NCBI GenBank assembly: GCA_025061985.1
Contig: JANXAW010000024.1
Location: forward strand, 1 to 64,000
Length of the DNA: 64,000 nt
From: Fimbriimonadales bacterium
GTDB taxonomy: Bacteria > Armatimonadota > Fimbriimonadia > Fimbriimonadales > GBS-DC
Reading direction: 5' to 3'
Made by a program: the position numbers and the translations under genes
The notes under the pieces: generated by a model
What the model saw: only the letters and a program-made list of their open reading frames with translations
Told to the model about the DNA's origin: nothing
Databases searched by the model: none
Part shown: positions 7,227-47,789 of the stretch, one piece after another
Layout: each line of letters starts with the position of its first letter
How positions within the stretch are numbered: position 1 is the first letter of the stretch

Positions 7227-7238
7227 ACCCCTTCCCAT

Positions 7239-7413: not shown

Positions 7414-7433
7414 GGGCAGAATTGCTTCTGCCC
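7414..7433 (+). promoter_or_regulatory. Perfect 8-bp leader hairpin upstream of the PEP-CTERM gene
   Basis: GGGCAGAA (7414-7421), TTGC loop, TTCTGCCC (7426-7433), in the predicted 5' leader about 24 nt before the GGAGG of the next gene. It could stabilise the mRNA or act as an attenuator; there is no further evidence. Confidence 0.4.
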
Positions 7434-7470
7434 GTGTGATAGCGCAATTGCTGAATGGAGGTGCCCGAAG

Positions 7471-8202: not shown

Positions 8203-8252
8203 CCCTCTCCGCGATCACAGGTTGCGAAGGCAAACGAGTGCCTTCCTTTGGG

Positions 8253-8277
8253 GTTCCCCCTGTCTAGCAGGGGGAAC
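8253..8277 (+). terminator. Perfect 10-bp hairpin terminator
   Basis: GTTCCCCCTG (8253-8262), TCTAG loop, CAGGGGGAAC (8268-8277), followed by TTTCAGGTTTT. It lies 50 nt after the PEP-CTERM gene and before the next promoter. It shares the CCCC...TAG...GGGG form with the hairpins at 7239 and 9542. Confidence 0.7.
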
Positions 8278-8390
8278 TTTCAGGTTTTGAGAACCCCTTT
8301 AGGGTTTCCCTGTGGAAGGGGGAACTGGGGGCTTTTAGTGAGAAGCCAGGGTAGGTCTCACTTCGTTCTCAGAATACGATTTCTGAAAGT

Positions 8391-8400
8391 GGGGTATAAT
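8391..8400 (+). promoter_or_regulatory. Promoter -10 for the dockerin-repeat gene
   Basis: GGGGTATAAT at 8391-8400 with TATAAT at 8395-8400; the start would be near 8407, leaving about a 26-nt leader that holds GGGAAAGGAGG (8415-8425). Confidence 0.6.
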
Positions 8401-8432
8401 AGGGTGAACCCCTTGGGAAAGGAGGCGTGTGT

Positions 8433-29358: not shown

Positions 29359-30162
29359 ATGAGGCGAGGCTTTACGCTGGTGGAGCTGCTGACGGTCATT
29401 GCGATCATCGCGATTTTGGCAGCGATCATCTTTCCTGTCGCGGGCACGGTGCGTGAAAATGCGCGACGCAGTCGCTGCATGGCAAACCTGAGCCAGATCT
29501 ACGTGGCGTTGCAAACCTACAAGGAGGATTTCCGCGCCTATCCGTTCGTGTTGGGAGCGTATGCGGTGGATGCAAATGGCAACCCTACCTGTGATCCTTC
29601 GAGAGCTGTTCCCTTCGACCGTGCCCCGAAGCCCCTGGGGAGCTACCTTAAAAACGACGAGATCTTCCACTGCCCGAATAACCCGATTGACGACAAGCGT
29701 TCGGTTGTGCGAGCGATTTACCCGCGAGGGCACGCGCTAGCAGGCCAACCTGTACGCTTCGGCACCGGGCGTCCAGATAGCCCTGAGGTTTGCTTCTACG
29801 CTTACGATAGCTACTCCATTGGGCGTGTACCGCGCGGCAACGACTTTGTCTACGAGCTACGCTATACCCTCTTTTGGTCAAACCAGAGCCTAAACGAGGC
29901 GGAGAACAGGCTGAGGGGGACAGATTACGGCAGAGGCTACTATGACGAACCAGTAGGTCCCAAAGGCACGGACAACCCCCGCCAGCTCGGTTATCGCAAC
30001 CCCGACACGACCACTGTGGTGACTTGGTGCACTTATCATCGTTCATATCGTGGTGATACGCCGGTGCGCGCGAAGGACGACATCGTGTTGTTCCTTACGG
30101 GGAACGTGAAAGTGGTCGACTCGCAGCAGATGTTCCAGTTGCCCTACTTGATGTATCCGTAG
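29359..30162 (+). CDS. Type IV prepilin-like protein (GspH/FimU-position minor pilin)
   Basis: A 267-aa protein with a very short leader, RRG, then the canonical class III signal FTLVELLTVIAIIAILAAIIFP (cut after Gly; Glu at +5). The mature part starts with the helical VRENARRSRCMANLSQIYVALQTYK that is typical of DUF1559-type and GspG/H-like pseudopilins. It ends in LFLTGNVKVVDSQQMF. It is the first gene of the operon. GAAGGGG lies 7 nt before the ATG. It would be processed by a prepilin peptidase and incorporated into, or initiate, a pilus or pseudopilus; no PilB, PilC or PilD gene is in the window. Confidence 0.88.
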   Translation: MRRGFTLVELLTVIAIIAILAAIIFPVAGTVRENARRSRCMANLSQIYVALQTYKEDFRAYPFVLGAYAVDANGNPTCDPSRAVPFDRAPKPLGSYLKNDEIFHCPNNPIDDKRSVVRAIYPRGHALAGQPVRFGTGRPDSPEVCFYAYDSYSIGRVPRGNDFVYELRYTLFWSNQSLNEAENRLRGTDYGRGYYDEPVGPKGTDNPRQLGYRNPDTTTVVTWCTYHRSYRGDTPVRAKDDIVLFLTGNVKVVDSQQMFQLPYLMYP

Positions 30163-30245: not shown

Positions 30246-32069
30246 ATGGTGGGCGTGGGTAGGCAACGGCGCGGCGCCTCGCTGGTCGAGGTGCTGGTGG
30301 TTGTTAGCATTTTAGCGCTGGCGATTTTAGTGTTTATTCGCCTGTACCCGAGTGGCTTTTTAGCATTGAAGCGCTCGGGCCAGAGCGATGCGGCGACGCG
30401 CCTTGCCCAGCAGGAGTTGGAGCGGCTGCGCACTCGTGCCGAGAACCTGCCGCGCGTCATCGCCCCCGTCCGCTATGAGTTCAGCGCAAATAGGGCAGTG
30501 CTTGTAGTAGACCCAACAATCTACCCCGATGACTTAAGCACGCAGTCGGACATAGAGGGACGGGTGCCTGCGCAGTATGCCAGCGGCGTGAACCGTTTTC
30601 GGCGCATCATTGGCGAGCGCGTCACGCTGGGGCAGCCCGGACTTGCCATAGGGCGCCAAGATGAGCTAACCGACGGCATCGTGTACACCACGCTGTTTGC
30701 GCCAATCGCTCAAAGACCAGACGACAGCGGCACGTACAACTACTACCTAACCGTGACAGGCGCACCTCTGCGCCGACTGGTACTAGATTCGGAGTTTCAG
30801 CAGCCTGACATTCGCTCTTTTGAGTACGGTATCGACTACGAGGAAGGGCGCGTGCTACTACGCCCATTGCCTGACCGCCGGATCAGCTATCAGGTGGAGT
30901 TCTCGGTGACATACGTGCCTGAAGAAGATAACTCTGGGGGGCGACCAAGAACTTTCTTGGTTACGAACGAAATCACACTCCCTCCCACAGATCCGCCTGT
31001 GGCTCAGTGGGTTGACCTACGCTTGGGCGACACCCCCGTGAGCCAGTTGCGAGGATTTTCAGGAGTTGTGCCCTACTCGGACGTAGTAGCTCGCATGTTT
31101 GAACGGCTGGACATCGACGCGCCGTGGCACCCCACAGACCCGTACCAGTACAAAGTGCTAAACCCGCTGACGGGCACAATTCTTATCAATCCTGCTGCGT
31201 CGGGCTACTATGAGCGGTATTGGCGCGGCGTGCGCCCACTGCAGGCTTATGTGAACTACTTCGTCCACGACTGGACAATCCTGCGCGAGGAGTTTGTGGT
31301 GCCCCCGTCGGGGCGTATCCGCCTGACCTTCGGCGACCTCAAGCAATTCGGCGACATCTTAGCTGACCAGACCGAGCATAGGGGCATGGGCATAGGGCGC
31401 GATGTCGGCTACGAGGGAGACGAGTCGCAAGCGGATCTAATCATTGTGGACATGCTCACGGGGCGCGCCGCCTACTTTAGGAGAGGTATGCAGATGGACT
31501 TAGGTAGCCGCCCTGACTTGCTGCCAGATCTGCAAGCAAACATTGACTATGGCGCGGGCATCATCACTATCGGCAACCGACGAATGCATGGGCGCAAGAT
31601 TCGCGTGCTCTACCAAGTGCACGAGGAGTGGGCGATTTCGGTGCAAAAAGCTGCTGATCGCTACGATTTGGTAGCCGACCGTGACGCTGTCACTGTGGAC
31701 ACGTGTTGGTACAACTGGCGCGACGCTATTCGCGGCGTAGAGAGCGACGATACGCGACGCCTTTACTTTAGCCCCAGCGAGGCGGGCAAGACCGTGCTGC
31801 TGCGCGAGTATTGGTACGTTGATGGCGCTGGTCGCACGCGTCGCGGTACAAACGGCGTGTTTCGCATCAGCAACGCGCCCGACGAAACTGGGCTGGTTTA
31901 CATTGACCTAAGAGACGGGCATCCTGATGCAAAGCGCTGGGACCCAAGCGTAACAGGGCAAGCCATACGCGGTGTGCAAGGGCTTTCGCTCAAGGTGCGC
32001 GTTACCTACGAGCCGCCCGGGCGCCGCGTGCGTACCGACTTTGACTTGTTGTTGCCCGCTAGGGATTAG
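30246..32069 (+). CDS. Oversized minor prepilin (GspI/PilV-like)
   Basis: A 607-aa protein. The N-terminus RRGASLVEVLVVVSILALAIL is a prepilin signal (Gly then A-S-L-V-E, Glu +5). It is followed by a helical ATRLAQQELERLRTRAENLP segment resembling GspI/PilV. GspI and PilV are usually 110-190 aa, so about 450 extra residues are present. The extra part is beta-rich, contains several VRVTYEPP / VEFSVTYVPEED-like strands and repeated TYDLVAD-type blocks, and shows no enzyme motif. It sits second in the operon. GGGAGG lies 9 nt upstream of the ATG. Confidence 0.85.
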   Translation: MVGVGRQRRGASLVEVLVVVSILALAILVFIRLYPSGFLALKRSGQSDAATRLAQQELERLRTRAENLPRVIAPVRYEFSANRAVLVVDPTIYPDDLSTQSDIEGRVPAQYASGVNRFRRIIGERVTLGQPGLAIGRQDELTDGIVYTTLFAPIAQRPDDSGTYNYYLTVTGAPLRRLVLDSEFQQPDIRSFEYGIDYEEGRVLLRPLPDRRISYQVEFSVTYVPEEDNSGGRPRTFLVTNEITLPPTDPPVAQWVDLRLGDTPVSQLRGFSGVVPYSDVVARMFERLDIDAPWHPTDPYQYKVLNPLTGTILINPAASGYYERYWRGVRPLQAYVNYFVHDWTILREEFVVPPSGRIRLTFGDLKQFGDILADQTEHRGMGIGRDVGYEGDESQADLIIVDMLTGRAAYFRRGMQMDLGSRPDLLPDLQANIDYGAGIITIGNRRMHGRKIRVLYQVHEEWAISVQKAADRYDLVADRDAVTVDTCWYNWRDAIRGVESDDTRRLYFSPSEAGKTVLLREYWYVDGAGRTRRGTNGVFRISNAPDETGLVYIDLRDGHPDAKRWDPSVTGQAIRGVQGLSLKVRVTYEPPGRRVRTDFDLLLPARD

Positions 32070-32119
32070 GTGAAACCTATGCCCAGTGATTTGAGTCTAT
32101 GGAGGTGGAGAAGGGCCTG

Positions 32120-33985
32120 ATGCGAGGTTGGCAGGCGCATTGGAAGGTGGGCTTTACGCTGGTGGAGCTGCTGGTGGTGATTGCGATCACCGCCATTTTG
32201 CTGGGTCTGTTGCTTATCCCGCTGGTGCGAGGGTTCCAGCTCACGCGCCAAGGGCAGGCGCAAGCGCAAGCACAAGATGTGATACGCCTTGCCCTAAGCC
32301 AACTCAGCAGCGACCTCAAACGCGCCGCCTACGTGTTCGACTGCTCCGACCGCATTATATATTTGCCTGTGCGCGACCGTAACGGCACGGTCGTGAGGGT
32401 CCCGATGCGCCACGCGATCATCGATATGGTCGCTCCTGCTTACGGCGACCCTGCTCAAGAGTCAAACGATCCCACCTCGGATATTCCCATCGGTCCCAAC
32501 GGGGAACCTGATGCGGAGCTGGCGATCCCTATTTCACCTGGGCGCACGATTATCCGCTATTTCATCGGGCTAATGGACAATGAAGCCCCTTACCTGAATC
32601 CTGAGGAGACGCGATTTGTAGAGGCCACTCAGCGCGAGAACTATGCGATTTTGTACCGCGCAGAATTTCGGCTTTATGTGCGCGACGGCGATCGGTGGGT
32701 ACTCAATCGTGAGCTGTTTGATCGCATTGAAGATTTGTTTGACCCGAACTTCTTCTACAGCAATGATCCTCGCCGGCGGGCAGCGTGGCGTCGAATTGCC
32801 AAGCCTATCGTACCGCTGGGGCAAGTGGATATGGTAAACGTGACCTACACTCAAGATGGTCGCCCTCAGGTGGAGCCGCTGGTGCAGCTGGCGCCTGCGC
32901 TTGTGGTCAATCAAACAGGGGCTCCTGTGGGCGCTGAGACGCTGAGCGATGAGGGCGTAGGCACTGCCCCTGTGCAGGTGCGCTTCCCGATCGGACTGTG
33001 GGATATTAGCCCTGAAAGCTTTCGGTTAGTGGTATTTCGCAGTCGCCCTGATGCGCTGCGCTATGGACAGCCACTGCGCTACTTCTACACTGCCTATGAC
33101 GCCGAGGACCACCAATGGTACTTGCGCTACTATCGCGCTACCCCTGATGGGCAAGTCACTGATGTGCCCGTTGCAAACCTTACTGCGCTGCGGGATATGG
33201 CACACGGCAACGCTGCTGCTACCCCCTGGCTCAACACCAGCCTCGACTATTTCACAGAAGCGGAGCCAATGGCGTTTTACGTAAACACGGAAGCGGGGCT
33301 TATCGATATGGCGATCCCGTGGTGGTTCAGCTATCCTGCAGGGGGGGTCTCTTTCAAAACGGGCGAATACCTGACCCCGTTCCAAGACCCTAGGCCCGAT
33401 ACCACCACTATCAACGGGCGTTTCAACGCTGCCTATCAGGCTGACCCAGAGAACGCGCCGAATGCGCGGCGGTACGTGTCGCTGCTGGATCTCAACAACG
33501 ATGGCGCGCTCGATGACTATCGCCAGAACTATCTGGCGTTGCCGACCGCCTCGTTAGTGCCCGGCTCGGAAGTTGTGATTGGACCCGACCAGCGTCCTGG
33601 TCCGAACTTCGGCAAGCCCGTTCGCTATCAGCGCGTGCCCTCGGCAACCGCTAGCCCAGGCCCAAACCAGTATCGCATCCTTTACCAGGATGTAGTGCCG
33701 TTCGAGGAAGTGCGCAGCACAATGGGGTTTGTGCCCCAGTTGCTGCGGGGGTATATTGAGTTTTACAGCGACCCCCAAACGCCTCTTCCTCCAAATTCGC
33801 AGATTGTGGTGACCTTTTACTATCGTTTCAACTTACCGACGGACACTTATGTGGCGGACTATCAGACGCGGCGCTTGATGAACCTTAAGGTGGGGCTGAA
33901 GCTTTATGGCGCGGAGCGCCCAGTCAGCTATAGCCTTACGACACAGCTGGAGGTGCCAAACATTGTGCAAGTACGGGGTCGATAA
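32120..33985 (+). CDS. Oversized minor prepilin (GspJ/PilW-like)
   Basis: A 621-aa protein. The signal VGFTLVELLVVIAITAILLG is canonical (Glu +5). QDVIRLALSQLSSDLKRAAYVF follows, the helix typical of GspJ and PilW, which are usually 200-350 aa. A later segment, DLNNDGALDD (residues 457-466), is a DxNxDGxxD calcium-type loop. The rest is beta-rich with no recognised enzyme. The ATG at 32120 is preferred over ATG 32099 because AAGGG (32113-32117) sits just before it and the leader is then a normal length. Its stop is 1 nt from the next start. Confidence 0.85.
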   Translation: MRGWQAHWKVGFTLVELLVVIAITAILLGLLLIPLVRGFQLTRQGQAQAQAQDVIRLALSQLSSDLKRAAYVFDCSDRIIYLPVRDRNGTVVRVPMRHAIIDMVAPAYGDPAQESNDPTSDIPIGPNGEPDAELAIPISPGRTIIRYFIGLMDNEAPYLNPEETRFVEATQRENYAILYRAEFRLYVRDGDRWVLNRELFDRIEDLFDPNFFYSNDPRRRAAWRRIAKPIVPLGQVDMVNVTYTQDGRPQVEPLVQLAPALVVNQTGAPVGAETLSDEGVGTAPVQVRFPIGLWDISPESFRLVVFRSRPDALRYGQPLRYFYTAYDAEDHQWYLRYYRATPDGQVTDVPVANLTALRDMAHGNAAATPWLNTSLDYFTEAEPMAFYVNTEAGLIDMAIPWWFSYPAGGVSFKTGEYLTPFQDPRPDTTTINGRFNAAYQADPENAPNARRYVSLLDLNNDGALDDYRQNYLALPTASLVPGSEVVIGPDQRPGPNFGKPVRYQRVPSATASPGPNQYRILYQDVVPFEEVRSTMGFVPQLLRGYIEFYSDPQTPLPPNSQIVVTFYYRFNLPTDTYVADYQTRRLMNLKVGLKLYGAERPVSYSLTTQLEVPNIVQVRGR

Positions 33986-33986
33986 G

Positions 33987-36629
33987 ATGCGTATGCGAAC
34001 TGCGCGTGGTCAAACGCTGATTGTGGCGCTGCTGGTAAGCTTTGCGCTGCTGATTGTGGGCGGCGTGTTCATTGCTCTCATTGCGCGCAACCTTCTCAAT
34101 GTTCGCCAAGCGCGTGAGCGCCTCAGCGCAGAGTACTTTGCCGAATCGGGCTTGCAGTTTGCAATTGACCAGTTGGTACGCAGCGAGTTCGGCGCAGACT
34201 GGCGTCCTATCCCCGACAACATCACCAACCCAGAAGACCCCGACTACTTCTGGCTCAAGCCTTATGACCCCGCAACGGGCACAGGCGGATTCACGCGCAT
34301 CAACTTGGAAGGCGGGCGCGCTCTTATTCGCGTCTCTTACCAGCCTTCAGGCACGGTGCATCAACAGCCCGTTATCAAGATTGAGTCGATTGGGCGTGTA
34401 GGCATCGTGGATCGGAACGATCCCTCCACTTTTCGCTTAGCTGACCGCGTGCAGCGTGCGGAGCGCGTCGCCTACATGCAGATTGGCACGATCGATTACT
34501 TGCGGTTTGTGATGAATCGCGAGCAACGGGGTACCTTGATGGACATCGGCGTGCCTAGCATTGGGCTGCTGGATAGGCAAGGGCGTGAGATTCCTTACCG
34601 CACCCTTTTGGGCGAACTGCTCAGTGGGAGCCTTACGGAGCACGGCTTAGGCGGTGGCTCGATCTATGTCAACGGCAACCTACGATTTAGTGGGCATGTG
34701 CAGATTGCGATAGATCCTGAGCGGGGGGAGCGGGTGTATGTGGCAGGGGAGGTGGTTCACAGTGAGGGCGCGCGCGTGGAGCTGATTACCCCACAAGGCA
34801 CTTTCTTGCTTCCTCACAGTCGTGATCCGAACTTTACCACTGCGGGTGGGCTTTACCGCGATGGACGCCCATTGACTGCTGCTGACGGGTACCCGCGCGC
34901 AATCGCCTATTTGGAGCCTCCCCGCATTGATGTGGAAGACCCCGCCACAAACCTGCCGCGCTATGTGGCTGCCACGCGCGAGTCGGGTATCTGGCGTCAA
35001 CGCAGCGACGGCACGTGGTTCAATACGGGCCAGTATGGCTATGGGCGCGGCATTTACATCAACAACGCGCAAGACATCCAGCAAGAGAGCCGCGCGATTT
35101 TGGGAGGCTACACGCTGCGGGGCGACTGGCTCAACCCCGGCAAATCGCGCTACTGGAATGGACCCTTCTATGAGCCTCCAGGCGTTTTCATTGAGCTAAT
35201 AGAAATCCCCAATCCCGACGGCACTATCAGGGTACAGGGCTTTCGCATCACGCGCAACCAAGCCGATCCGCGCGACGTGTGGTTTGATCCTCGCACGGGA
35301 CGGCCCACAAACCTCAAGACGATGAGCTTCTTCTTCCGTAACCCGAATGATCCAAATGACCCCACGCTCAACAACGAACTTACTTGGGACGATCGCACCT
35401 TCGACGTGCCCTTCAACGGCGTAATCTACGCCGAGGGCAACGTGCGCATCAAAGGGCGCATCCCCTCAGGCAGGCAAATCACGATTGTCACCAACGGCAC
35501 CGCATACATTGAGGGCAACATCGTCAAGGGCAACAAGCGATCGGCGTTAGCTATTCTCGCAAAGGACTACGTGTGTGTGAATACTACGCAGTTCCTCCAG
35601 CGCACTTTTGACAGCCCTGCCGAAGCAAAGGGCGATCCGACGAACCCAGAGGCGCCATACTTTTTCACCGTGCTGCCCGAGCAGCCGATGCGCTTGGTAT
35701 TCAGTTTTGGCATAGATCCGCAGCAATACACTGGTAACTTCGGGGGAATTTGGCTCCTCTTGCGCCACGCTACCAGCGCTACCGGAGGTGGTTCGTTTGT
35801 CAATCTGCTGATCAATCCTGCATGGTTTGAGAACGCGAACTATGACCCCTACTATCCCTTCGGAGTGGTCAGCGATGCGCGTGTGTTGCCCTTAGGGGGC
35901 AGCCCGCTGCAAGTCTACCCAAACTATGAGCAGAGGGCTATCCGATTGGTGCCTCCCCCTAGCGGTGCAAGGTACTTGCTGATTCCCGACCCTGGCGTAC
36001 CGAACCTATTGCAGCTCCAGCTGCATCCGCTTTCGAACGTGAGGGGTTTCCAACTGCCTGCGGGGAATGCGCCGTACCTAATAAGCGCCGCTGCGGTGCA
36101 GCCGTTGGACATTCGCATTGAGGCGGCTTTATTTGCCCAAGAGGGCTGCTTCTTCGTCATTCCGGGCTACTGGTTCAACACGAACCCTCAGGACACGCGC
36201 GCTAATTATGAGCGCACGCGCAAACGCTTTGAGGGTATAGTTTCGGATGAGTTCCCGTTCTACGGAGAGCCGCTAGACATCCGCATTACGATTGTAGGTT
36301 CGATTGCCGAGAACTTCACGGCGCCGCTGGGCGACCAGACCGAGTGGCTACGGCGCTGGGGTTGGATCCCACGCTTTTATGGCAGCTCGGGCTTTCAGAT
36401 TCCTGATCAGCATCAGTATTACTTCCATGATCGGGAAGGGCGGTACGCGGTGAACCTGTTTATGCGGTATGATCCTGTGTTCCGTCCGAGGGTGGGTTCG
36501 GAGCCTCTGCGCGTGGCGTATGACGCAACTCAAGATCCGTCGGGGCAGCATCCGGGCAGGTTTTTGCCGCCGCTACCGCGACTGCCCGTGTGCCCGAAAC
36601 CGATTTACATTGGCGATGTTCGTCCCTAA
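33987..36629 (+). CDS. Oversized GspK/PilX-like minor prepilin without Glu5
   Basis: An 880-aa protein. The N-terminus ARGQTLIVALLVSFALLIVGG has the prepilin Gly and hydrophobic stretch but Val, not Glu, at +5, as in GspK and PilX. LSAEYFAESGLQFAIDQLV follows, typical of that group. The body has beta-solenoid-like repeats: SIYVNGNLRFSGHV, VIYAEGNVRIKGRI, GTAYIEGNIV. GspK is about 330 aa and PilX about 190 aa. It is the fourth gene of the operon, exactly where GspK/PilX stands in minor pilin clusters. The start is the ATG at 33987 directly after the previous stop; in-frame upstream codons lie inside the preceding gene. Confidence 0.85.
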   Translation: MRMRTARGQTLIVALLVSFALLIVGGVFIALIARNLLNVRQARERLSAEYFAESGLQFAIDQLVRSEFGADWRPIPDNITNPEDPDYFWLKPYDPATGTGGFTRINLEGGRALIRVSYQPSGTVHQQPVIKIESIGRVGIVDRNDPSTFRLADRVQRAERVAYMQIGTIDYLRFVMNREQRGTLMDIGVPSIGLLDRQGREIPYRTLLGELLSGSLTEHGLGGGSIYVNGNLRFSGHVQIAIDPERGERVYVAGEVVHSEGARVELITPQGTFLLPHSRDPNFTTAGGLYRDGRPLTAADGYPRAIAYLEPPRIDVEDPATNLPRYVAATRESGIWRQRSDGTWFNTGQYGYGRGIYINNAQDIQQESRAILGGYTLRGDWLNPGKSRYWNGPFYEPPGVFIELIEIPNPDGTIRVQGFRITRNQADPRDVWFDPRTGRPTNLKTMSFFFRNPNDPNDPTLNNELTWDDRTFDVPFNGVIYAEGNVRIKGRIPSGRQITIVTNGTAYIEGNIVKGNKRSALAILAKDYVCVNTTQFLQRTFDSPAEAKGDPTNPEAPYFFTVLPEQPMRLVFSFGIDPQQYTGNFGGIWLLLRHATSATGGGSFVNLLINPAWFENANYDPYYPFGVVSDARVLPLGGSPLQVYPNYEQRAIRLVPPPSGARYLLIPDPGVPNLLQLQLHPLSNVRGFQLPAGNAPYLISAAAVQPLDIRIEAALFAQEGCFFVIPGYWFNTNPQDTRANYERTRKRFEGIVSDEFPFYGEPLDIRITIVGSIAENFTAPLGDQTEWLRRWGWIPRFYGSSGFQIPDQHQYYFHDREGRYAVNLFMRYDPVFRPRVGSEPLRVAYDATQDPSGQHPGRFLPPLPRLPVCPKPIYIGDVRP

Positions 36630-36641
36630 GGGGTGAAGCGT

Positions 36642-39600
36642 ATGGTGCGAACGCAGTGGATGGTGGGTAGCATATTGGCAATGTTGGTTGCCATCGCCTA
36701 TGCAGATGGGCGTGGCTATGAAGCGCGCACAGTCACAGTCAACGCAGGTGTGGTGGTGTTTGGCTCAAACGACGCCTATGCGCGCGATCTATACACCTTT
36801 TACGTGATGGAGCGACGCAGTGACCTTAAGCCGCTGGGGTTGGTGTTTCGCAATCCGTTCGCTCCTACGCGCGATGCTAACAATCGTCCCGTTACGCGCA
36901 ACCATGCGTTGTATTGGCAAGTAGATGTTGCTCGTCTAAACGACAGCCAGCTTGCCCGCTACCACATTTTGCTGCTGAGTCGCACCAGTTGGGACGGAAT
37001 GACACTTGAAATCCGCGAAAAGTTGCGCCGCTTTGTGGATGGTGGGGGGACGCTGTGGATCGATGTGCCGTCGCAGGGCACGGGGGGCAGGCTCTGGTTT
37101 CCAGAGGTGGAGCTCAGCTCTGCTTCTGGAGCGGTCAATGTCGTGAACCTGAACCATCCGCTGCTGCGGGGCTACTATGTGTTGTCGCCTGCGGAAGTGG
37201 CTCGCTTGGGGCTACGTGGGCGCGGCTTCAGCGCTGCCACTTTGGACATCCGTGCTAATCGCCCCGTGCTGCAAGTGGTTACGGCAGTGGGCGAGGCTCC
37301 TGTGATCGCAGCGGTCACCTACGGTTCGGGGCGGATCGTGGTTAGCGCAGCGGGGATTGCAGCTGCCATGAATGCGCCGCTTAGCCCGACGGGCGATATT
37401 GTGCCAGAGGCACCTGAGTTAGCGATGGAGGCAGTGCCCGAGTTGGAGCTTAAGTTCGCCTACAACCTTGTGCGTTGGGCGGGTGCGGGCACGCGCGAAG
37501 CCTTCAACCAGCGCCGAGCGAACGCAGTTGCCGAGCAATATGGCGCGCCGTTGGGCATCCGCTGGCGCGTACAAGGGGGCGGCTACACCCAGCGAAGCGG
37601 CAGCGCAGTGGTCTATGGCGGGTTGGTGTTTGTAGTCAGAGGCAATGAGCTTATCTGCTACGATGCTGTACCGCGCCGCGACTTGGATGGCGACGGGCGT
37701 GCCGATGATGGCGCCCTGGACTTCGAGCGGGGCGAGATGTTTGACTGTGTTTGGAGAGTATCGCTTCGGACGCAGCGCGTATCGCCCCCTGTAGTCGTGG
37801 AGAACCCTCAAGGGATACAGGTGGTGGTTGCTACCGATGAGGGGGTGGAGGCGTACTGGGCTTTACCACGCGGTGCGGGTGGGCGCGTTCCCGATACAGG
37901 TCAGCAAGCCTGGTCCATATCAGCGCCTGTTGTCCTGGGAAGGAACCTGCCGCACCTGGTGCGCGGAGGTTATCCAGCGCCAGTTGTGGTAGACAACGCG
38001 TTGCTCCTTGTGCCCTTGTCGTATCAGGCAGGCACGCGCGTAACGGCAGGCTTTTACGCGGTGTTGCTTTCGAATCCACCCAGAGTAGTTACCTCTGCGA
38101 GCGTTCCGTTTGGTGAGTGGATACAGCCTCACCCAAACGGTGGTAGCTCCATAGGCGAGTGGATCTTGCCTCCCGTGGCGGGCTACGTGCCCAATTTGGG
38201 GCAGGGAGGTGGCAACGATTTCGTCGTCTACTTCGGCGTGCGCGACGCTGTCGGTACGGACGCGCATGTTGAGGGTGTTCGCGCGTTGTGGATTGGCGCC
38301 AAGGGCGAGATTTTGGAGCCGATTGTGCGCAACGGCGTGTTCCAAAACGCCTTTCGCTCGCGGATTACGGGGCACGCTCGCTTCTTCGCCAACCCCGACG
38401 GCACCGCTGACCTCAGCAATCCATTACACCCACGCGTGTACCTAATCGACCGCGCCACTGGCGCAGTCATAGAGGAAGTCACTGAACAATGCCTGTTCAA
38501 CGTTGGTCCTCAGAACCAAGTTGCTCAGGGACAAGTGTTCATTCGAGGCTCTCTACCTCGTGATGTTACGCGGGATGCTGCTTTGGTGATTGACTACTAT
38601 ATCGACTGGGGCTCTGTGCGAGGCGATGCGCGGGCGCTGTTTCGCACCTATGCCACCTTGCCCAGCTACTCTACTACCAGCCCAACTGTGCCTCCGCAAC
38701 GCCTGCAAGGCTACACCCTTGCTCCCAATGGCATCCTCTATATCACTACTGGTACCGAGGAGACCGACCCTGACAGAGCGAATGGCAACATTATCGCCCT
38801 GCAAGAGCAATCTGCTGTTCTTACGCAAGGGGGTGGGGGTGGTACTCAAGCGCGCAGTGGTTCGCGGGTGCTCTGGCGCTGGCAATCACACGGTGGCTAT
38901 AAACAGCCCATACCGGGGCAAGGATTGCAGGAAGTAACTGTGCCCGCCAGCACTATCTACAGGGAACCGAACGAAACCTTTATGCGGCTCGCTGCGAACT
39001 TGCTTGACTTCCGTCATAGCGCTGCTGCGAGCCTAGGGGGCAATCAAGCACGCCAGTGGATGAATTTCACTTTCAGACATGCACCTATCTACTACGATGG
39101 AGCTGTCTATGCTATTGGCGAGGGCGAGTTCCGCATTGGTCCGTTCAGCCGCCCATACACTGTCTTGGTCGCCTTAGATGCGGAGCCAGGTCTGTTTGTC
39201 GTACCCGTGGGGGCTCCAATAGGCTACTCCGACAACTTCCGAGTAAGCCTTCAGCAGCGGGATTACGCGCGTTCGGGGGCGAGCCCGATCAACAACGTTT
39301 CCTCCGTCCTGAGCTACGAGGCACGTAACCCAATACCTGATGCCAAAGTGGACTTCGCCACGGGGCAGATTCGGATTGAGAGCTTCGCACGTGGCGACCC
39401 CGCAACAGGGCGCATCAACCTCATTGACAATGTGCTGAGCATTTCGCAGCCTGTGGTGGTTAGCTTCGGCACTCCGCAGATCAACTCTACCTTCGTTCCA
39501 AAAGACCAACTTTTGAACTGGGACAATCTGCGCTGGTATGGGGTGCTGTTGCTTGGCAAGCCGATTGTCCAACCCGTGGTGGTGGGGGACAACGTGTACA

Positions 39601-41366
39601 TGCCGATGCTATTTGTGAATCCGATTCAGGTCTCGCAGACATTTGTGGGCATGATGGCGTTGGCGGCGGATCCGTATCCGCTTCAGCCCGACTTGCCACA
39701 ACGCCAAGCTCAGGCGGGGGTCATCCCACGTGCCAGTCTCCAAAATCCACTTCGCTACCGATCTATTGTCCGCTGGCCTTATGTGGATGACCTTGGCGCT
39801 CAGTTTGAAGGAGGGGATTTGGATCTGCCGGCATTGTTCGAGTTGCTGTACAATCGGTTTGCGGAGAACTTTGAGCAAGGCAGCGATGCTTCCTCGATTG
39901 CCGTAGGCGAAGGGCTGATGCTGGTGAGCATTGCGGGCGAGTTGCGCGCTTATAGTCGCCAAAGCACAATCATCGCCGATGAGAACCGCCTAGTAGAGGT
40001 GGACACTGCAGGGCGTGTCGTATGGTCAACGGAGAACACTCAGCTGGACGTGTACACTGGTTCGCGCGTTCCCAGCAAGCTGCGCTATGCCCTGACGCCC
40101 AACGCCCGCGTGTACCGCTACAGTGAGAATGAGTTCTTGGTGGTAGAGCCAGAGCGCAACCGCGTGGTCATCATTGACCGCGCTGGGTCAGAGGTACGCA
40201 CGATCACCCGCTTTATCCCTGACCAAGTGGTGCTGCGCGACGAAGCAACAGGGCAGGTCACGGGAGTGGTCAATCTGCGTGCGGCTGGTGCGTTCAGCTC
40301 CAACTACTACAGTGGCGCTCCAGAGACCTTGCGCAACCCCACTGATGTTACGGTGTGGACAGAGTTCGTACCTGCTGCGCGCAACCCCTTCGCAGAACAT
40401 AGAGAGCTGGAGTACTGGATCCACTACACGATCACAGATGCAGGGAACGCGCGCGTTGTGGATATCGTCGATCGATATGAGGTTGACCCACGCACCTTTA
40501 CCGTAGGTGGGCCTGTACGCCATTCGCAGCTGGGCGAGATGCTAGGTGTGCTTTACTGGATGACACCTTCTCAACGCTTAGGTCGCAACTATCGCTATGT
40601 GGCTGCCCAGCGGTTTGAATACTGGGACGGCAGCCAGACGCGGATTGGCTTTGTCACCGTTGTGCAAAACCTTGCAGAGGGGGCGTTCGAGGCCACGGGC
40701 ACTTTAGACCCGTTGGATCCAAGCACCCCGCATGCAGGGATGCTTACCATTCAGCTTGTTGTGAATGGGCGCGATCAGACGCTGTTTATCCGCCGAATGC
40801 GCCTGCCCGACGGGAAAGCTGTGCCCATCCTCGGCCCTGTGGCTATCGATGTGAGCAAACGCAGCGCAAGTGGCCAAGGAACCACAGGGCTGTACCTGCT
40901 GCTTACGACCAGCACAGGCATCTATGAGCTACAGGTTCCTCTCACGGAGAATATCCGCGACACCCTGCCCGTCACGTGGATGCTACCCAGCGAAGTCTTC
41001 GCAACCAATGTACGCACGCAGATTAGCGGGCAGGACTTAGTGCTCAGACCCGATGGCACTCCTGAATATCCAATCTTGCTGCGAGCGCGTCAGGCTCGGT
41101 ATTTAGACAACGGGAACGTGCTGGTCGTAAACGCCTACGAAGGTGAAACTCGGGTCTTAGTCCGAAGAGAAGGTAACACGGTCGTAGCTGAGCCACGCGC
41201 CTACTTCGGCGAGGTGTTTGAGATAAAAGGTGCCGATTACGACCCACAAGCCGAGGGGCTGGGCTTTAAGTACAGCTCCATTGTATGGAGCACTTTGGAT
41301 AACCCAGAGATGAGTGGCTCTTACTCGTTGCGCAAGCCTAGTTCTGCCGATCGAGGAGGTTTCTGA
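36642..41366 (+). CDS. Giant secreted beta-propeller-type protein (PilY1-position, first)
   Basis: A 1574-aa protein. A signal peptide (about residues 1-22, ending in AIAYADG) is followed by an N-terminal alpha/beta domain resembling amidotransferase-like or VWA-like folds (YHILLLSRTSWDGM, then FVDGGGTLWIDVPS). A long beta-rich body contains propeller-like blades (GGLVFVVRGNELICYDA, GELRAYSRQS, then VDTAGRVVWSTEN). A DLDGDGRADD calcium-type loop starts at residue 347. It has no membrane anchor or sorting signal at the C-terminus. The position directly after the PilX-like gene is where PilY1 is found in Gram-negative tip operons; sequence kinship to PilY1 is not shown. The ATG at 36642 has AAGGGG 8 nt upstream. 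Confidence 0.7.
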   Translation: MVRTQWMVGSILAMLVAIAYADGRGYEARTVTVNAGVVVFGSNDAYARDLYTFYVMERRSDLKPLGLVFRNPFAPTRDANNRPVTRNHALYWQVDVARLNDSQLARYHILLLSRTSWDGMTLEIREKLRRFVDGGGTLWIDVPSQGTGGRLWFPEVELSSASGAVNVVNLNHPLLRGYYVLSPAEVARLGLRGRGFSAATLDIRANRPVLQVVTAVGEAPVIAAVTYGSGRIVVSAAGIAAAMNAPLSPTGDIVPEAPELAMEAVPELELKFAYNLVRWAGAGTREAFNQRRANAVAEQYGAPLGIRWRVQGGGYTQRSGSAVVYGGLVFVVRGNELICYDAVPRRDLDGDGRADDGALDFERGEMFDCVWRVSLRTQRVSPPVVVENPQGIQVVVATDEGVEAYWALPRGAGGRVPDTGQQAWSISAPVVLGRNLPHLVRGGYPAPVVVDNALLLVPLSYQAGTRVTAGFYAVLLSNPPRVVTSASVPFGEWIQPHPNGGSSIGEWILPPVAGYVPNLGQGGGNDFVVYFGVRDAVGTDAHVEGVRALWIGAKGEILEPIVRNGVFQNAFRSRITGHARFFANPDGTADLSNPLHPRVYLIDRATGAVIEEVTEQCLFNVGPQNQVAQGQVFIRGSLPRDVTRDAALVIDYYIDWGSVRGDARALFRTYATLPSYSTTSPTVPPQRLQGYTLAPNGILYITTGTEETDPDRANGNIIALQEQSAVLTQGGGGGTQARSGSRVLWRWQSHGGYKQPIPGQGLQEVTVPASTIYREPNETFMRLAANLLDFRHSAAASLGGNQARQWMNFTFRHAPIYYDGAVYAIGEGEFRIGPFSRPYTVLVALDAEPGLFVVPVGAPIGYSDNFRVSLQQRDYARSGASPINNVSSVLSYEARNPIPDAKVDFATGQIRIESFARGDPATGRINLIDNVLSISQPVVVSFGTPQINSTFVPKDQLLNWDNLRWYGVLLLGKPIVQPVVVGDNVYMPMLFVNPIQVSQTFVGMMALAADPYPLQPDLPQRQAQAGVIPRASLQNPLRYRSIVRWPYVDDLGAQFEGGDLDLPALFELLYNRFAENFEQGSDASSIAVGEGLMLVSIAGELRAYSRQSTIIADENRLVEVDTAGRVVWSTENTQLDVYTGSRVPSKLRYALTPNARVYRYSENEFLVVEPERNRVVIIDRAGSEVRTITRFIPDQVVLRDEATGQVTGVVNLRAAGAFSSNYYSGAPETLRNPTDVTVWTEFVPAARNPFAEHRELEYWIHYTITDAGNARVVDIVDRYEVDPRTFTVGGPVRHSQLGEMLGVLYWMTPSQRLGRNYRYVAAQRFEYWDGSQTRIGFVTVVQNLAEGAFEATGTLDPLDPSTPHAGMLTIQLVVNGRDQTLFIRRMRLPDGKAVPILGPVAIDVSKRSASGQGTTGLYLLLTTSTGIYELQVPLTENIRDTLPVTWMLPSEVFATNVRTQISGQDLVLRPDGTPEYPILLRARQARYLDNGNVLVVNAYEGETRVLVRREGNTVVAEPRAYFGEVFEIKGADYDPQAEGLGFKYSSIVWSTLDNPEMSGSYSLRKPSSADRGGF

Positions 41367-41369
41367 GCG

Positions 41370-44300
41370 ATGATGGGGCGAGCACTGTTTGGGGTTGTGG
41401 CTATGCGCTCTCTGTTGGTGGGGTTGCTGACAGGCGTCTTTGCGGTGCTTGCTGCTCAAGATAGTTGGCACACGCATCGGGGTAGCGAGCAACGCACGGG
41501 CACCACTACGAACGCACGCGCTAGCGCCGTGAGCCTGCTACTGGCGTGGACTTATCCACCCGCTGAATCGGTGCGTGCGCCTTTGGTGGTGGATAACGAT
41601 TCGGCGTTAGCGGGTCCGGTGGTAGGCGAGTGGCTCATCCCCAGCCCTGCAGAGCGGGCGTCGGATCCTTATCTCGCCAATCCCGATACGACAGAGCCAT
41701 ATCGTTATGCCTTCTGTGTTCGTGAAGGGGAAAACGCTCCAATTGCTGAGTTCGCTTGGCTGAGCGGTGCCTTGCCCGCTGGTTACTATCGGGTTTATGT
41801 GTACATTCCTGCTGTCCCAACTCGCCCTCGAGGTCAGAGCGCGCTAAATGCTAGCCGTGCAGAATATGTGATTGCCGATGGTTTTGGGGTCACCACGGTT
41901 TACCTTGACCAGACGGTAGGCGGCTGGCGACCTCTTGGGGATCGTTCGTTCTATCATGACGGCAGCTCTAACGGCATCAAAATCACGCTGCGCAACGTCA
42001 TTCGTCGGGATAGCCCCGACTATGACGCGCAGGAGCCTGTGATCGTTGTTGCGGACGCAGTGCGCTTTGTACCTGACTATGGCACTGTGCAAGCCTCGCC
42101 TGTAGTGATCCGCCACCCGCTGGATCCTACCCGCCACCTGGTCTACATCGTAAACGGTAACGGTACTCTCACTTGCATAGAGAACCCCATTGGCACGCGC
42201 GAGGCGCGCGTGCGCTGGACTTTGCGCCTGCCTGATTTGCCCGAGCAAGCGCACGGCATCATCTACGACACACGCAGTCCTGACTTCACGCCCGGACTGT
42301 TCTCAGGAGACAACCTCCTACCAGACGCCTACAGTCCAACCTACTACGAGATTGCTCCCACAAACGACCCGAATAACATTCAGCGCGCTTATTGGCGCGT
42401 GCGTGTGCCAACAACAGGGCAATACTACGTAGAGGCGTGGTTCCCTTCGAGCGTTGACAACGCTCGTCAAGCAGAGTATGTGATTGAGCATGAGCAAGGC
42501 GAATTGCGCGTGCGCGTTGATCAGCGATTTGGCGGGCGGTGGGTACGCCTGAACAACACGCCTGTAGAACTGCGCGCGGGCAGAACTTATGAGATTGAAG
42601 TCAACAACTACTCTCCTGAGGATGTTGCTGCAGGCGCGCGGCGCGTAATTGCCGACGCCATCCGCTTGCTAAGGGCAGATGGGTTGGATCGCGGAAGCTA
42701 TTCCACGCCTGCGGTAGGGGAGGTACGCATTCTCGACGGTGGCTCGGTTCAAACGCGCTGGGTGGTCTTCCTTGGAGCTCAAAATGGCGCGATTTACGCC
42801 ATAGATGCCTTGGGTGATGGCGAAAACAACACCCAACGGGGCGAAACTAAGATTTACTGGGTGATCAAGCCAGACAATACCGCAAGCTTCAGCTACGCAT
42901 CACCGCTCATTATTGGAAACGATCGCCTAGTCATTGGGAACCCCAATGGTTCAGTATACTTGATCAGAACTGATTTAGACCCCAACAACGAGGACACCTA
43001 CTTCGTTTGGGAGTATCGGCGCCCTGGTGCGGCGTTTGTGTCCACGCCCGCCTATAGCCCCGAAACGGGTTTAGTGTACATCGGCAGCATTGAAGGCGGC
43101 AATCTGTTTGGGCGCTTGATTGCCTTAGACCCATCTCGTACGGATGACCCGCGTACTCCAGATGTGGATGAGCGCGTGGCGTGGACTTACCCGAAAGAGG
43201 TGAACAACTTCATAGAACCTATCACCGCAACGCCTGCGGTGGCGTTAGGGCGGGTCTACGTCACGACGGGCGGCTTGAATGGCGGGCGGTTGTACGCTGT
43301 AGACGCCCGAACGGGACAGCTGAAGTGGGCGCAACCGAGCCTTGATGCACCGCGCATCCCGCAGTTCAGCTTCTTCCACAGCTCTCCGCTGGTAGTGCCC
43401 AACGCCCCCTACGACGACGGCGATACGAGGCCCATCGTCTACGTAGCAGGAGAGATTGGCCATGTGATCGCCTTCGATGCTGAGGATGGGAGGTTGATTT
43501 ACATTAGCGAGAGTTTAGGATCGGCGGTTTACAGCTCGCCCATCTTCACGAACATTCAAGATACTGATGCGGAGGGGGATGTGCTGGCAGCGCGTCCCGC
43601 AGTTGTGGTGGCGACCAACGCGGGCAAGCTCCTTGCACTACACGCCGATGACCTGACCAACGCGCGCGGTGGGAAAGCCTTCGAGGGGTGGGATCTCTAC
43701 GCCGAGACGGTATTTGCCTCGCCTGCCGTGTTGGATGGATGGCTTTACGCCGCGGATGACGACGGGATTGTGTACGCCTTCAATGTGCAGGGAGTGGCTG
43801 CTGCTCCGCCTGAGAGTGGGTTAGGTGAGGTCATTCGCGATCCAACGCGCAGCACAACGGAAGACGGGGGCGACTACAGTAAGCTACGCATCACTGTCAC
43901 AACCAGTAGGGAAGATGCAGATGCTGTGCGCGAGGGGCGTCTGCTACCAGAGCGAGTCAGGCCCGAGTATCCCGCAGCGCTGGAGTGGGGCGATCGGATT
44001 TATGTCATTGCGTGGAACTTCAGGCAAGGCACAATCCCGCGTACTATACGGGTGCAGCTTAGGGGACCAGGCAACTCGCGTGCTGAGTTAGCGCTTCAAG
44101 CCCGTCGCCACCGACGAAACCCTGATGATCCTAACTCGGAGTACTTCGTGGCGGTTGGTGAGTTCAGCATTGTGCCATCGAGCACAAACTTCTACACGCC
44201 CGGGCAGAAGTACACCTTAGAGGTCTCTGTTGATGGCGCGTTCTCATGGACAGCCGACCTATGGCGAGAGACCCCCGAAATTGATCGCCCCAGCCGAGGG

Positions 44301-47300
44301 GACAGCACCCAGCCTGAGCCAGGCGAGCCAGCGACAGGGTTCTTCCGAGAGGTGGGCTGGCGATTTGGAGTGGCGAACCCGATCGGCGTGGAGGGAGTGC
44401 CCGGCGAAATCATTGGCTTGGGCAGTGCGGCGGAGAACTTGTTCAACGGTAATGCCGAGGGTGACGATGACCCGCTGCGCCCAACGCGGCGCGTGCATAC
44501 GCGCTTCTCAGGCAGTCATCGTGTCGGGCCAGGCGAACATGGCAAGACGGTAGAGGGCGAGTTTCGCGTGTTTGACCGTCGTCGCCCGCTGACTAGCCAT
44601 CCCGTACCTTTCCAGCTCACCATACGTGCTCTTGCAGGAGATCTTGGCTGGCAGCTGGGGCAAATGCCTATCCGCCCCTTGCCGTGGGAAATCATGCCTG
44701 TGCCGCGCAACAACATCAGCCCTGACTATCCTGACATCTCTGCGCGTCAGATGCAGCTGCTTATCGACGGCGCGACCGAGTTGCAGCGCGCTGCGCGCCC
44801 AGTATACAGCACTGGCAACCAAGTGGTGGTGCGCGTCCACGTGCCACGCTTCCAGCCAGCAAACCTGGGCGGCTACGACGGAGGCACCGTCATCTTCTAT
44901 GATGCCAACGGCAATGGACGCCTCGATCGGCTGGAGAACATTACCGACGTAGACGCAACGCGCAACCTAATGGCGGAAGCCTATCGTGTCGTAAACACGG
45001 TTGTTGCCGTGGCTGTGGACGAGCGGATGTTCGTAGAAGAGCAGACGATTGATTTCGGGGCGTTGCCTGGAGGCTTCGGCTTCAACTGGGGTGCATTGTT
45101 TGCTAACGTGCCCAGCTCTGAGTTCGATCCCAACAACCCCATATTTGAGCCGTTCTGGAAGCCGTTTACGGTGCGCAACGAGGGCAATGTGAACCTTTAC
45201 CCCGTGTACTTGGGCAAGGCGTTTGGCAGTCCGCTGGGCACGGAGTACCTCTACTCGGATACCACCAGCTTCTTCGCGCGCATCCCCGTGTGGACAACCG
45301 TGGTCAGTACGCTTGACCCGCGCTTCTGGCCGCAACAGAACCCCTTCTATCCAACAAACAGTCAGCCTTACCCTGTGCTGCAAAAGCCGCAGGTGGGCGA
45401 CTACACGGCGACCACACTCACTATCCCTGCGGTACCTCCGCGTCGTCCCGCAGGCCCAGAGGTACGGGTGACGCCTGTCAAGCCGCGCGTATCCATTGCG
45501 ATACCGCCCTTCCAGCCGTTGGGGGTCTATTCGCAGTTGGTGTCGCCGTATCAGCACAACGGCAACCCCAACCAAAACGTGGGCGTGGTGAATGGTACGT
45601 TCGCCACGCCGCCAATGCGCCTTGTGGTGCGGGTGCGTGAGACACAACTTACGGGCAGCACAAACCGCGGCGTCAAGCCGATGATAGACGATGTGCCTGC
45701 GCCCGACGCACCACGCCCCAGCGACATTACGCCCGTTGCCTTCCGCGATCCTACCACAGGCAGATTGCACCTGTACTGGGCGAGCAACCGCCACGATCCA
45801 ATCGACCGTCCGAACAACTTCTACCTCTACAAAGCCACGCTCAACTGGAACATCAACCTCACTCAAGATGGCGTGCGCACAACCAACGGTTGGCAACCTA
45901 GCTCTGACGCTCGGTGGTGGGGCGAGGTGTTTGGACCGTACCCAAACGACCCGAACGGCACCTTATTCATCAGGGCGCTGGGGCTGGACCGACCACTTAC
46001 TGCGTCTGAGCTGGCAACCATCAAACACCATCGCCCGTATGTCTACCTCACTGATGCTGCACCGTTTCTGTTCTGGACAGGTGAGATCACTGTACTCAAC
46101 CAGCGGTATGAGTTGCTGTTCTATGTGCGTTTGAACCCTGCCACAGGTTTGCCAGAGGGCGAGATTCGCACCGTTCCGCTAGACCCCACAGTGCCGCGCC
46201 GAAGCCTTGCGCTCGCGGGCGTACCGCAAGTGGGGCATTGGCTGTTCTATGTAGCAGCCCCTGTGGGGCGAAGTGGAATCTTCTACATCGCCTCGCCCGA
46301 TGAGCGCTTTAACACGTGGCAACTTATCCGCCGACAACCTTCCGAGCAGCGGTTGCCCCTTTCGGGCATCGTACGCAGTGTAGAGAGCGTAGGGGCGAAC
46401 ATATACACAGTATTCGCTGACCCGAACAATCCCGAGAGTGGCTTCGTGCGCTTTGCCGATGTCTTCTTCATTGGCGTGGCAGGCGACCAGAGCCAGCCCG
46501 ACGTGCTGATGCAGCGCTTCTTTATCAACCCCCGAAATCGCACGCTTGTACCTCTTACTGATCGGCGCGCGCGCGAGGCTATCTCGGAGCAACTGCTGTC
46601 GCGCTACATTGCTCTTGTGGTAGACGAGGTGGCGCGCAAGGAGCCAGGGCAAAATGTGTGGCGCGCACGCCACCTGGATTGGGTTGCGCTTACGGGCGAA
46701 TGGAACCGCAATCCGCAGCAACCAGATTTGGACATCAAAGTCAACGGTGTCTCGATTCTTCAAGAACGCGACCCGAGCAACCCTGCTCAGCTGCGCCTGC
46801 AACGCCCTGTGGTAGATCCACAAACAGGCTTGATGCAGTTTACATACAACCACTTGCAGAATGGGCTACTCATCCCGCGTGGACGCATCTTGGTAGATCC
46901 GGCGAATGGCACGATTCGCTTCGTAGATATGGCGCCACGCGAGCGCGATGTGGTCACGGTGACTTATCGTCCGCGCGTGTACCGTGTGAGCGAGCTTCCG
47001 ATTGGCTCTGTGGGCAGCTATTCGCAACTGCGCGTGGTGTTCCAGCGCACGATGAACCCACGCCACACCACCCCGAGCGTGGGTCGCTCCCCTGTGCGCA
47101 AGGGGAACTACAACCGTGTGTGCGAGATTGGCGACCGTCCGACGGTGGATCGCGTGTGGCTCTTCTTCCGTCGCAGCGCGCCCGCGCCTAACAGTTCGGG
47201 TAGCTTCTTCTTCAAGACGCTGCGTCCTGGCATTCGTCTCAGAGCGCCTATTCTCACCGAGCGTGGGCGACTGCCGCTGCAGCCAAGCGCTGAGGTGGTG

Positions 47301-47789
47301 CGCGGAGTGAACCATGCGACGGTACACTTGGAGGGGGTGAACCCGCCTAATGCTACCTTGAGCTTCTACGAGTACGATGCGCAACGGGGCAACATTTACT
47401 TCACCGCTGCCGACTTGGGTAAGCAGGTGCGTGTGCGTTACCTTACCCTCACACGCAATCCAAACGGGCAGGTGGTAGAGGAAGTGGTAGAGGAGACTCA
47501 CGTAGTGCGCTGGATTGACGAGGGCAACTTGCCACGCGGGCTGGGGGTAGACGTGGAGTATACCTCGCCCGTGCCGATTGACTTGCCCACGAATGAGCTG
47601 TACCTGTGGGCGATGCCCAACCTTGAGTTCCGCAACACGAATATCAGTCTATTCAATGACCAGTACGGCGGGCTGGATGAGGCGCTGCTGCTATTTTGGA
47701 GCAGCACGCGCAACGGCGTAGGGAACATCTACGGTGCTGCGTTGCAACCGCGCTTCTACGCCAGCCCCTACGATCCCGACCGCGACTAA
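41370..47789 (+). CDS. Giant secreted PQQ-type beta-propeller protein with two golvesin-like domains
   Basis: A 2139-aa protein, the largest in the window. A signal peptide (about residues 1-30, ending VFAVLAAQD) is followed by two golvesin-C-like domains (about 85-232 and 320-438: YYRVYVYIP, AEYVI, ADAVRFVPD; repeated as YYVEAWFP, AEYVI, ADAIRLLRA). A beta-propeller of roughly seven PQQ-like blades follows (about 450-805: GRLYAVDARTGQLKW, GHVIAFDAEDGRLIY, GIVYAFNVQG). An EF-hand-like DANGNGRLDRLE lies at 1178-1189. The rest is beta-rich, ending in an LYLWAMPNLEF / LLLFWSSTRNG repeat. There is no membrane anchor. GAGGAGG lies 10 nt upstream of the start. Adhesion or matrix binding at a pilus tip is inferred. 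Confidence 0.75.
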   Translation: MMGRALFGVVAMRSLLVGLLTGVFAVLAAQDSWHTHRGSEQRTGTTTNARASAVSLLLAWTYPPAESVRAPLVVDNDSALAGPVVGEWLIPSPAERASDPYLANPDTTEPYRYAFCVREGENAPIAEFAWLSGALPAGYYRVYVYIPAVPTRPRGQSALNASRAEYVIADGFGVTTVYLDQTVGGWRPLGDRSFYHDGSSNGIKITLRNVIRRDSPDYDAQEPVIVVADAVRFVPDYGTVQASPVVIRHPLDPTRHLVYIVNGNGTLTCIENPIGTREARVRWTLRLPDLPEQAHGIIYDTRSPDFTPGLFSGDNLLPDAYSPTYYEIAPTNDPNNIQRAYWRVRVPTTGQYYVEAWFPSSVDNARQAEYVIEHEQGELRVRVDQRFGGRWVRLNNTPVELRAGRTYEIEVNNYSPEDVAAGARRVIADAIRLLRADGLDRGSYSTPAVGEVRILDGGSVQTRWVVFLGAQNGAIYAIDALGDGENNTQRGETKIYWVIKPDNTASFSYASPLIIGNDRLVIGNPNGSVYLIRTDLDPNNEDTYFVWEYRRPGAAFVSTPAYSPETGLVYIGSIEGGNLFGRLIALDPSRTDDPRTPDVDERVAWTYPKEVNNFIEPITATPAVALGRVYVTTGGLNGGRLYAVDARTGQLKWAQPSLDAPRIPQFSFFHSSPLVVPNAPYDDGDTRPIVYVAGEIGHVIAFDAEDGRLIYISESLGSAVYSSPIFTNIQDTDAEGDVLAARPAVVVATNAGKLLALHADDLTNARGGKAFEGWDLYAETVFASPAVLDGWLYAADDDGIVYAFNVQGVAAAPPESGLGEVIRDPTRSTTEDGGDYSKLRITVTTSREDADAVREGRLLPERVRPEYPAALEWGDRIYVIAWNFRQGTIPRTIRVQLRGPGNSRAELALQARRHRRNPDDPNSEYFVAVGEFSIVPSSTNFYTPGQKYTLEVSVDGAFSWTADLWRETPEIDRPSRGDSTQPEPGEPATGFFREVGWRFGVANPIGVEGVPGEIIGLGSAAENLFNGNAEGDDDPLRPTRRVHTRFSGSHRVGPGEHGKTVEGEFRVFDRRRPLTSHPVPFQLTIRALAGDLGWQLGQMPIRPLPWEIMPVPRNNISPDYPDISARQMQLLIDGATELQRAARPVYSTGNQVVVRVHVPRFQPANLGGYDGGTVIFYDANGNGRLDRLENITDVDATRNLMAEAYRVVNTVVAVAVDERMFVEEQTIDFGALPGGFGFNWGALFANVPSSEFDPNNPIFEPFWKPFTVRNEGNVNLYPVYLGKAFGSPLGTEYLYSDTTSFFARIPVWTTVVSTLDPRFWPQQNPFYPTNSQPYPVLQKPQVGDYTATTLTIPAVPPRRPAGPEVRVTPVKPRVSIAIPPFQPLGVYSQLVSPYQHNGNPNQNVGVVNGTFATPPMRLVVRVRETQLTGSTNRGVKPMIDDVPAPDAPRPSDITPVAFRDPTTGRLHLYWASNRHDPIDRPNNFYLYKATLNWNINLTQDGVRTTNGWQPSSDARWWGEVFGPYPNDPNGTLFIRALGLDRPLTASELATIKHHRPYVYLTDAAPFLFWTGEITVLNQRYELLFYVRLNPATGLPEGEIRTVPLDPTVPRRSLALAGVPQVGHWLFYVAAPVGRSGIFYIASPDERFNTWQLIRRQPSEQRLPLSGIVRSVESVGANIYTVFADPNNPESGFVRFADVFFIGVAGDQSQPDVLMQRFFINPRNRTLVPLTDRRAREAISEQLLSRYIALVVDEVARKEPGQNVWRARHLDWVALTGEWNRNPQQPDLDIKVNGVSILQERDPSNPAQLRLQRPVVDPQTGLMQFTYNHLQNGLLIPRGRILVDPANGTIRFVDMAPRERDVVTVTYRPRVYRVSELPIGSVGSYSQLRVVFQRTMNPRHTTPSVGRSPVRKGNYNRVCEIGDRPTVDRVWLFFRRSAPAPNSSGSFFFKTLRPGIRLRAPILTERGRLPLQPSAEVVRGVNHATVHLEGVNPPNATLSFYEYDAQRGNIYFTAADLGKQVRVRYLTLTRNPNGQVVEEVVEETHVVRWIDEGNLPRGLGVDVEYTSPVPIDLPTNELYLWAMPNLEFRNTNISLFNDQYGGLDEALLLFWSSTRNGVGNIYGAALQPRFYASPYDPDRD

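Follow-up and report, generated by a model that had tools for sequence, protein, structure and literature searches.

The window analysed here, a stretch of 64,000 nucleotides from a Fimbriimonadales genome (Armatimonadota; 1.35 Mb, 66% complete), contains six consecutive genes on the + strand, A-V-W-X-Y1-Y2, that are read as one operon and in which V, W and X are intact, neighbouring and uninterrupted frames arranged in tandem. The genes and their features are as follows:

29359..30162, + strand: A, small type IV pilin of 267 aa with a GspH/GspG-like N-terminus (DUF1559/SBP_bac_10), the first operon gene in relatives
30246..32069, + strand: V, PilV/GspI-like minor prepilin of 607 aa, cleavage site G^ASLVE, with Glu5
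32120..33985, + strand: W, PilW/GspJ-like minor prepilin of 621 aa, cleavage site G^FTLVE, with Glu5
33560..33754, + strand: W residues 481-545, best-conserved block of the W extension in the alignment (PGSExVxGPDQxPGPN...)
33987..36629, + strand: X, PilX/GspK-like prepilin of 880 aa, cleavage site G^QTLIV, without Glu5
34662..34808, + strand: X residues 226-274, first beta-solenoid-like block (IYVNGNLR, VYVAGEVV), from model strands and motif enrichment
35421..35582, + strand: X residues 479-532, second beta-solenoid-like block (IYAEGNVR, AYIEGNIV), from the model, the motif and conservation
35655..36137, + strand: X residues about 557-717, putative CBM-like jelly-roll sandwich, from Foldseek and the predicted model
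36633..41366, + strand: Y1, giant secreted partner of 1577 aa, adjoining X in nearly all relatives
41370..47789, + strand: Y2, giant secreted partner of 2139 aa, its order conserved in relatives

The W frame (32099-33985) encodes 628 aa from its first ATG and 621 aa when translation starts at 32120. In the X frame (33906-36629) the first ATG gives 907 aa and a later one, at 33987 and near the starts in relatives, gives 880 aa. The sizes of 607, 621 and 880 residues that a sequence-only reading of this DNA had given for V, W and X are reproduced from the frames.

Type IV minor prepilins are recognised by a class III leader, Gly or Ala at position -1, a hydrophobic helix, and Glu5 in the proteins at the I and J positions, and these features are present here. 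Position -1 is Gly or Ala in every aligned homolog with a residue there, and mature position 5 is Glu in 51/51 V and 52/52 W homologs and in 0/59 X homologs, all 59 of which carry I, V, L, M or A instead. X thus has the absent Glu5 that marks the K/PilX class. PilX and GspK lack Glu5 and are located at the extreme tip of the pilus (PMC7541494), so that the absence of Glu5 from X and its presence in V and W constitute the signature of a GspK/PilX tip subunit in X. The predicted models have the expected long alpha1 helix (residues 7-65 in X, 14-68 in W) followed by beta structure. A matches Pfam PF07596 (1.5e-07) and N_methyl (6e-07), the N-terminus of V matches TIGR02598 and TIGR02523, and that of W matches HpsC, Verru_Chthon C and GspH models. 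The known-family matches to V and W are confined to the first 60-70 residues, and X has no known-family match above cut-off. Profiles of X, V, W and Y1 searched against solved structures returned pilin N-termini or chance matches only, and hhalign aligned V with W over the first 66 columns only, giving no common extension domain by that route.

The named models closest to V and W mostly span 80-360 positions, and those taken as yardsticks are far shorter than the proteins (PilV 139, GspI 101, GspJ 192, HpsC 318 and Verru_Chthon protein C 361 positions). For the N-termini of A, V and W, the Verru_Chthon cassette and cyanobacterial HpsB/HpsC rank with the closest named models, but these models are far shorter (151-361 positions) and all their scores lie far under the curated cut-offs. 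A codon comparison with three close relatives yields dN/dS values of 0.04-0.24 along V, W and X, extensions included, in every segment with estimable dS. The open V, W and X frames of relatives, together with purifying selection throughout, make gene fusion or frame decay unlikely, and chance fusion, which the sequence-only reading had raised against its own proposal of oversized minor prepilins, consequently fails as an explanation. Its other objection, the existence of normal-length orthologs in close relatives, found no example among the fetched loci. The proposal itself stands, the frames being real and far longer than the family models.

The oversized forms are widespread. X homologs occur in 60/61 close genomes, and across Armatimonadota the X profile is found in 190/201 genomes (136/140 good ones) and the V profile in 114/121 (109/115 good ones). 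Loci were taken from 20 genomes of the order, and 20 further loci were added to the alignments. The order A-V-W-X-Y1 is retained in 19/20 Fimbriimonadales loci, the exception being G054, and Y2 comes next in 18 of the 20 (one contig ends before Y2). In loci from other Armatimonadota families W-X-Y1 are adjacent in 18/20, the two exceptions being a contig that stops after X (L080) and a locus in which W lies away from X (L084). Outside the G054/G055 lineage, complete frames span about 500-710 aa for V, 510-800 aa for W and 750-1115 aa for X, with stop-to-stop frames of X reaching up to 1180 aa in the phylum profile search, and the segments of all three proteins keep steady lengths in alignments across the phylum. 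At W residues 481-545, 34% of columns have at least 90% identity within Fimbriimonadales. X has no match in the plasmid collection, and a contig search with a single protein as query returned near relatives only. The giant forms and the same gene order recur in nearly every sampled relative, and from their sequences giant V, W and X therefore appear to be a conserved functional component of a pilus and not species-specific adhesins.

The sole lineage in the sampled phylum with shortened forms is that of G054 and G055, which have 1.5 Mb genomes, V of 262-318, W of 492-538 and X of 599-685 aa, and no adjoining Y genes. Their loci (L050 of G054, 3599-9022; L069 of G055, 1609-6449) retain A, V, W and X with short V/W/X and without adjoining Y1/Y2, and the lineage offers a natural test of the role of the extensions. 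Several other loci depart from the common layout in minor ways. A tandem pair of A-type pilin genes lies ahead of V at L037 698-3249, and tandem A is also seen in L082, L086 and L089. The Y1 of G004 is split into two frames (L032 5667-10308), which may be an assembly error or genuine, and a second X-like gene, 46% identical, occurs in a member of the genus (G002:C355:394-3054), for which duplicate and contamination are both possible.

The AlphaFold model of X (pLDDT 88, pTM 0.88) is mostly beta after its N-terminal helix, and together with that of W (pLDDT 84.5, pTM 0.71) it bears out, with confidence, the earlier description of the extensions of these two proteins as beta-rich. That description had further assigned to X beta-solenoid repeats with the pattern V-N/E-G-N-L/V-R-x-x-G. 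The motif is real and enriched, with four copies in X (residues 226, 250, 480 and 506) and 73 occurrences across 38 relatives against 6.3 expected from shuffles, but it is sparse, and the solenoid is smaller than had been implied: its strands are limited to two short blocks, at about 226-274 and 479-532, and thus make up a minor part of X. Weak matches to the beta-solenoids of FapA and MinC_C appear in a few relatives. Much of the remaining extension consists of the CBM-like jelly-roll region and of folds without a PDB match. Foldseek relates X to CBM28, CBM22, CBM35, CBM6 and BcsB with probabilities up to 0.99, E-values of 5e-3 and weaker, and low TM-scores over the query, and a viral fold search with X gave CBM-like and tail-fibre-like matches only. 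The CBM-like region was placed at about residues 557-717 from the length of the alignment and the arrangement of the strands. Ligand binding by the X extension is suggested by this resemblance of predicted fold alone. For W, the PDB hits ranked first by E-value carry probabilities of about 0.1, and its extension is thus without a recognised fold. A candidate repeat, G-x-I-x-F...V-x-Y, was noticed by eye in V, W, Y1 and Y2 and carries no weight in the interpretation. The best-conserved segments of X outside the helix are residues 479-535 and 721-775, the block at 479-532 being the most conserved extension segment by mean residue frequency, and conservation is comparatively low in the CBM-like region.

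The giant partners have their own recognisable domains. Y1 begins with a DUF4159-like alpha/beta domain (a weak match in 17/17 members) and has scattered weak propeller-type matches, and Y2 contains Golvesin_C domains (PF25275, 6.9e-25) and a PQQ-type beta-propeller (PF13360, 1.7e-09). The position of Y1 and Y2 after X is reminiscent of PilY1, but no match of either to the PilY1 family was seen: PF05567, the C-terminal beta-propeller of PilY1, gave no match in 61 genomes, a result that does not establish absence, as the search controls were equally silent. The genome also encodes a type IVa set comprising PilB, PilT, PilC, PilD, PilM, PilN and secretin: pilB-pilT-pilC-pilD lie together on contig C44, with pilM, a PilN-like gene slightly below the gathering score, and the secretin elsewhere on C44. 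PilO was not identified. In one relative (G041), pilB, pilT, pilC and pilD stand immediately upstream of the operon.

Taken from these sequence features, A, V, W and X are probably the H, I, J and K minor pilins that form the tip or priming complex of a type IVa-like pilus, with X outermost. PilD would cleave the leaders, and V, W and X would bundle through their alpha1 helices as in GspI-J-K. The large extensions of the three would project from the bundle as a single conserved head. X and W may contact Y1 and Y2, which would stand in for PilY1, and the head would prime assembly, stop retraction and hold a surface or extracellular polymer. The polymer is plausibly a polysaccharide, with the X CBM-like region and the Y2 Golvesin_C domains as the gripping parts, although polysaccharide as the ligand is less certain than the tip complex. 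The very large tip anticipated from the protein sizes is a fair inference, as the oversized prepilins sit with the partners expected at a pilus tip. A broader and more tentative proposal, which we regard as possible, is a single tip of new architecture throughout the phylum, in which three co-enlarged minor pilins with partly unmatched folds and two giant secreted partners would together replace PilY1 and make up one outsized head that has to cross the secretin.

An alternative role for such a tip is suggested by Thermus thermophilus ComZ (554 aa), a GspK-like minor pilin in which a 380-residue beta-solenoid is inserted in the pilin sheet, and which binds DNA and has adjacent minor pilins (PMC6561018). 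ComZ-type pilins are characterised by DNA binding and by being needed for transformation. By analogy, the giant tip would serve chiefly to take up DNA in natural transformation, as a receptor in which the solenoid region of X binds DNA and PilT retraction imports it. The solenoid-type repeats of X, its lack of Glu5 and the two PilT-family ATPases above cut-off in the genome are consistent with this role. However, ComZ is absent from the top 50 fold hits for X, the solenoid-like blocks in the model are short, and V and W are enlarged as well, unlike Thermus PilA2 and PilA3, whose described constructs (to residues 193 and 233) have an ordinary length; we consider a DNA receptor unlikely.

Less probable still is a pseudopilus resembling that of type II secretion, in which the V-W-X tip would load secreted proteins and Y1 and Y2 would be cargo or docking factors. 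The gene order H-I-J-K agrees with such a system, and one phylogeny classes Armatimonadetes filaments as T2SS (PMC6668835). Type II secretion is distinguished by the lack of a retraction ATPase and by GspL/M in place of PilM/N, but here PilT-family ATPases score well above cut-off, PilM is present and PilC is closest to the Thermus-type model; given this pil machinery, a retractile type IVa-like pilus fits better. Moreover, separate, shorter T2SSK matches lie above cut-off in 43/61 genomes, so that in most of them a K-type gene of T2SS exists besides X.

Among named families W matches HpsC best, a pseudopilin of hormogonium polysaccharide secretion (4.5e-07, over the N-terminus only), and together with the CBM-like folds this match could point to an operon for extracellular polysaccharide export, as annotated for the cyanobacterial Hps pseudopilins. 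This is very improbable, since the HpsC match is limited to the common pilin helix and no polysaccharide genes were recognised adjoining the operon in the loci read. Finally, the variable, adhesin-like diversification that the sequence-only reading had entertained would make the extensions fast-diversifying species-specific adhesins, for which the lower conservation of the CBM-like region of X and of parts of V and W, relative to the remainder, could be cited, but this is the least probable account, as conservation of the extensions throughout the phylum extends to length, order and sequence, every segment being of similar length and under strong purifying selection, in one operon of constant order.

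The tip complex favoured here may be compared with several known systems. Modular pilins number more than 1200 cases in 264 architectures, the most extreme cited having 860 aa, and Streptococcus sanguinis PilB/PilC, ETEC CofB and GspK likewise carry extra tip-displayed domains on a pilin (PMC8179133). The predicted models of X and W show large extra domains, here putative functional modules. In the present case, however, three neighbours are enlarged jointly, the added parts have no domain signature (that of W no PDB fold), and they are conserved across the phylum. Thermus ComZ with PilA1-PilA3 is similar in being a solenoid-enlarged K-type minor pilin among minor pilin genes (PMC6561018), but only ComZ is enlarged there, whereas V, W and X all are here; in addition, X is larger than ComZ, has its solenoid divided into short separate blocks and carries a CBM-like region besides, and two giant secreted partners follow downstream. 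The Myxococcus priming complex of PilY1 and minor pilins resembles the operon in that a giant partner outside the pilin family is encoded together with four minor pilins (PMC7541494, PMC13190605). The Kil tips also use pilins with added domains, in spearhead heterotrimers (PMC12075869), but unlike A-V-W-X they belong to a Tad system, have several alternative forms and occur in myxobacteria only. Modular pilins and the inserted solenoid of ComZ are thus already known; the joint enlargement of V, W and X, its conservation across the phylum and the unmatched fold of W are new. In the open PMC literature, the titles and abstracts listed for Armatimonadota type IV pili and pilins, Verru_Chthon and pilus tips do not describe these proteins. 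Minor pilins were omitted from a large survey owing to poor sequence alignment (PMC6668835). Modular pilins that lack domain signatures were expected to escape detection (PMC8179133). A-V-W-X appears to be such a case, a tip set retained across a phylum.

Tip complexes determine what a pilus grips, and the size of this one raises the question of how so large a head would pass through the secretin pore. In Myxococcus, function was lost when PilY1.3 or PilW3 carried an sfGFP fusion, possibly because passage was blocked (PMC7541494). Fimbriimonas ginsengisoli is cultivated and is reported to be fimbriated and non-motile (PMC4072686), which makes the passage question testable.

As a separate observation on contig C44 of the window's own genome (L103:5700-8149, G000), the secretin is apparently split, a 261 aa STN/N0-domain protein being encoded directly before a secretin frame of 536 aa.
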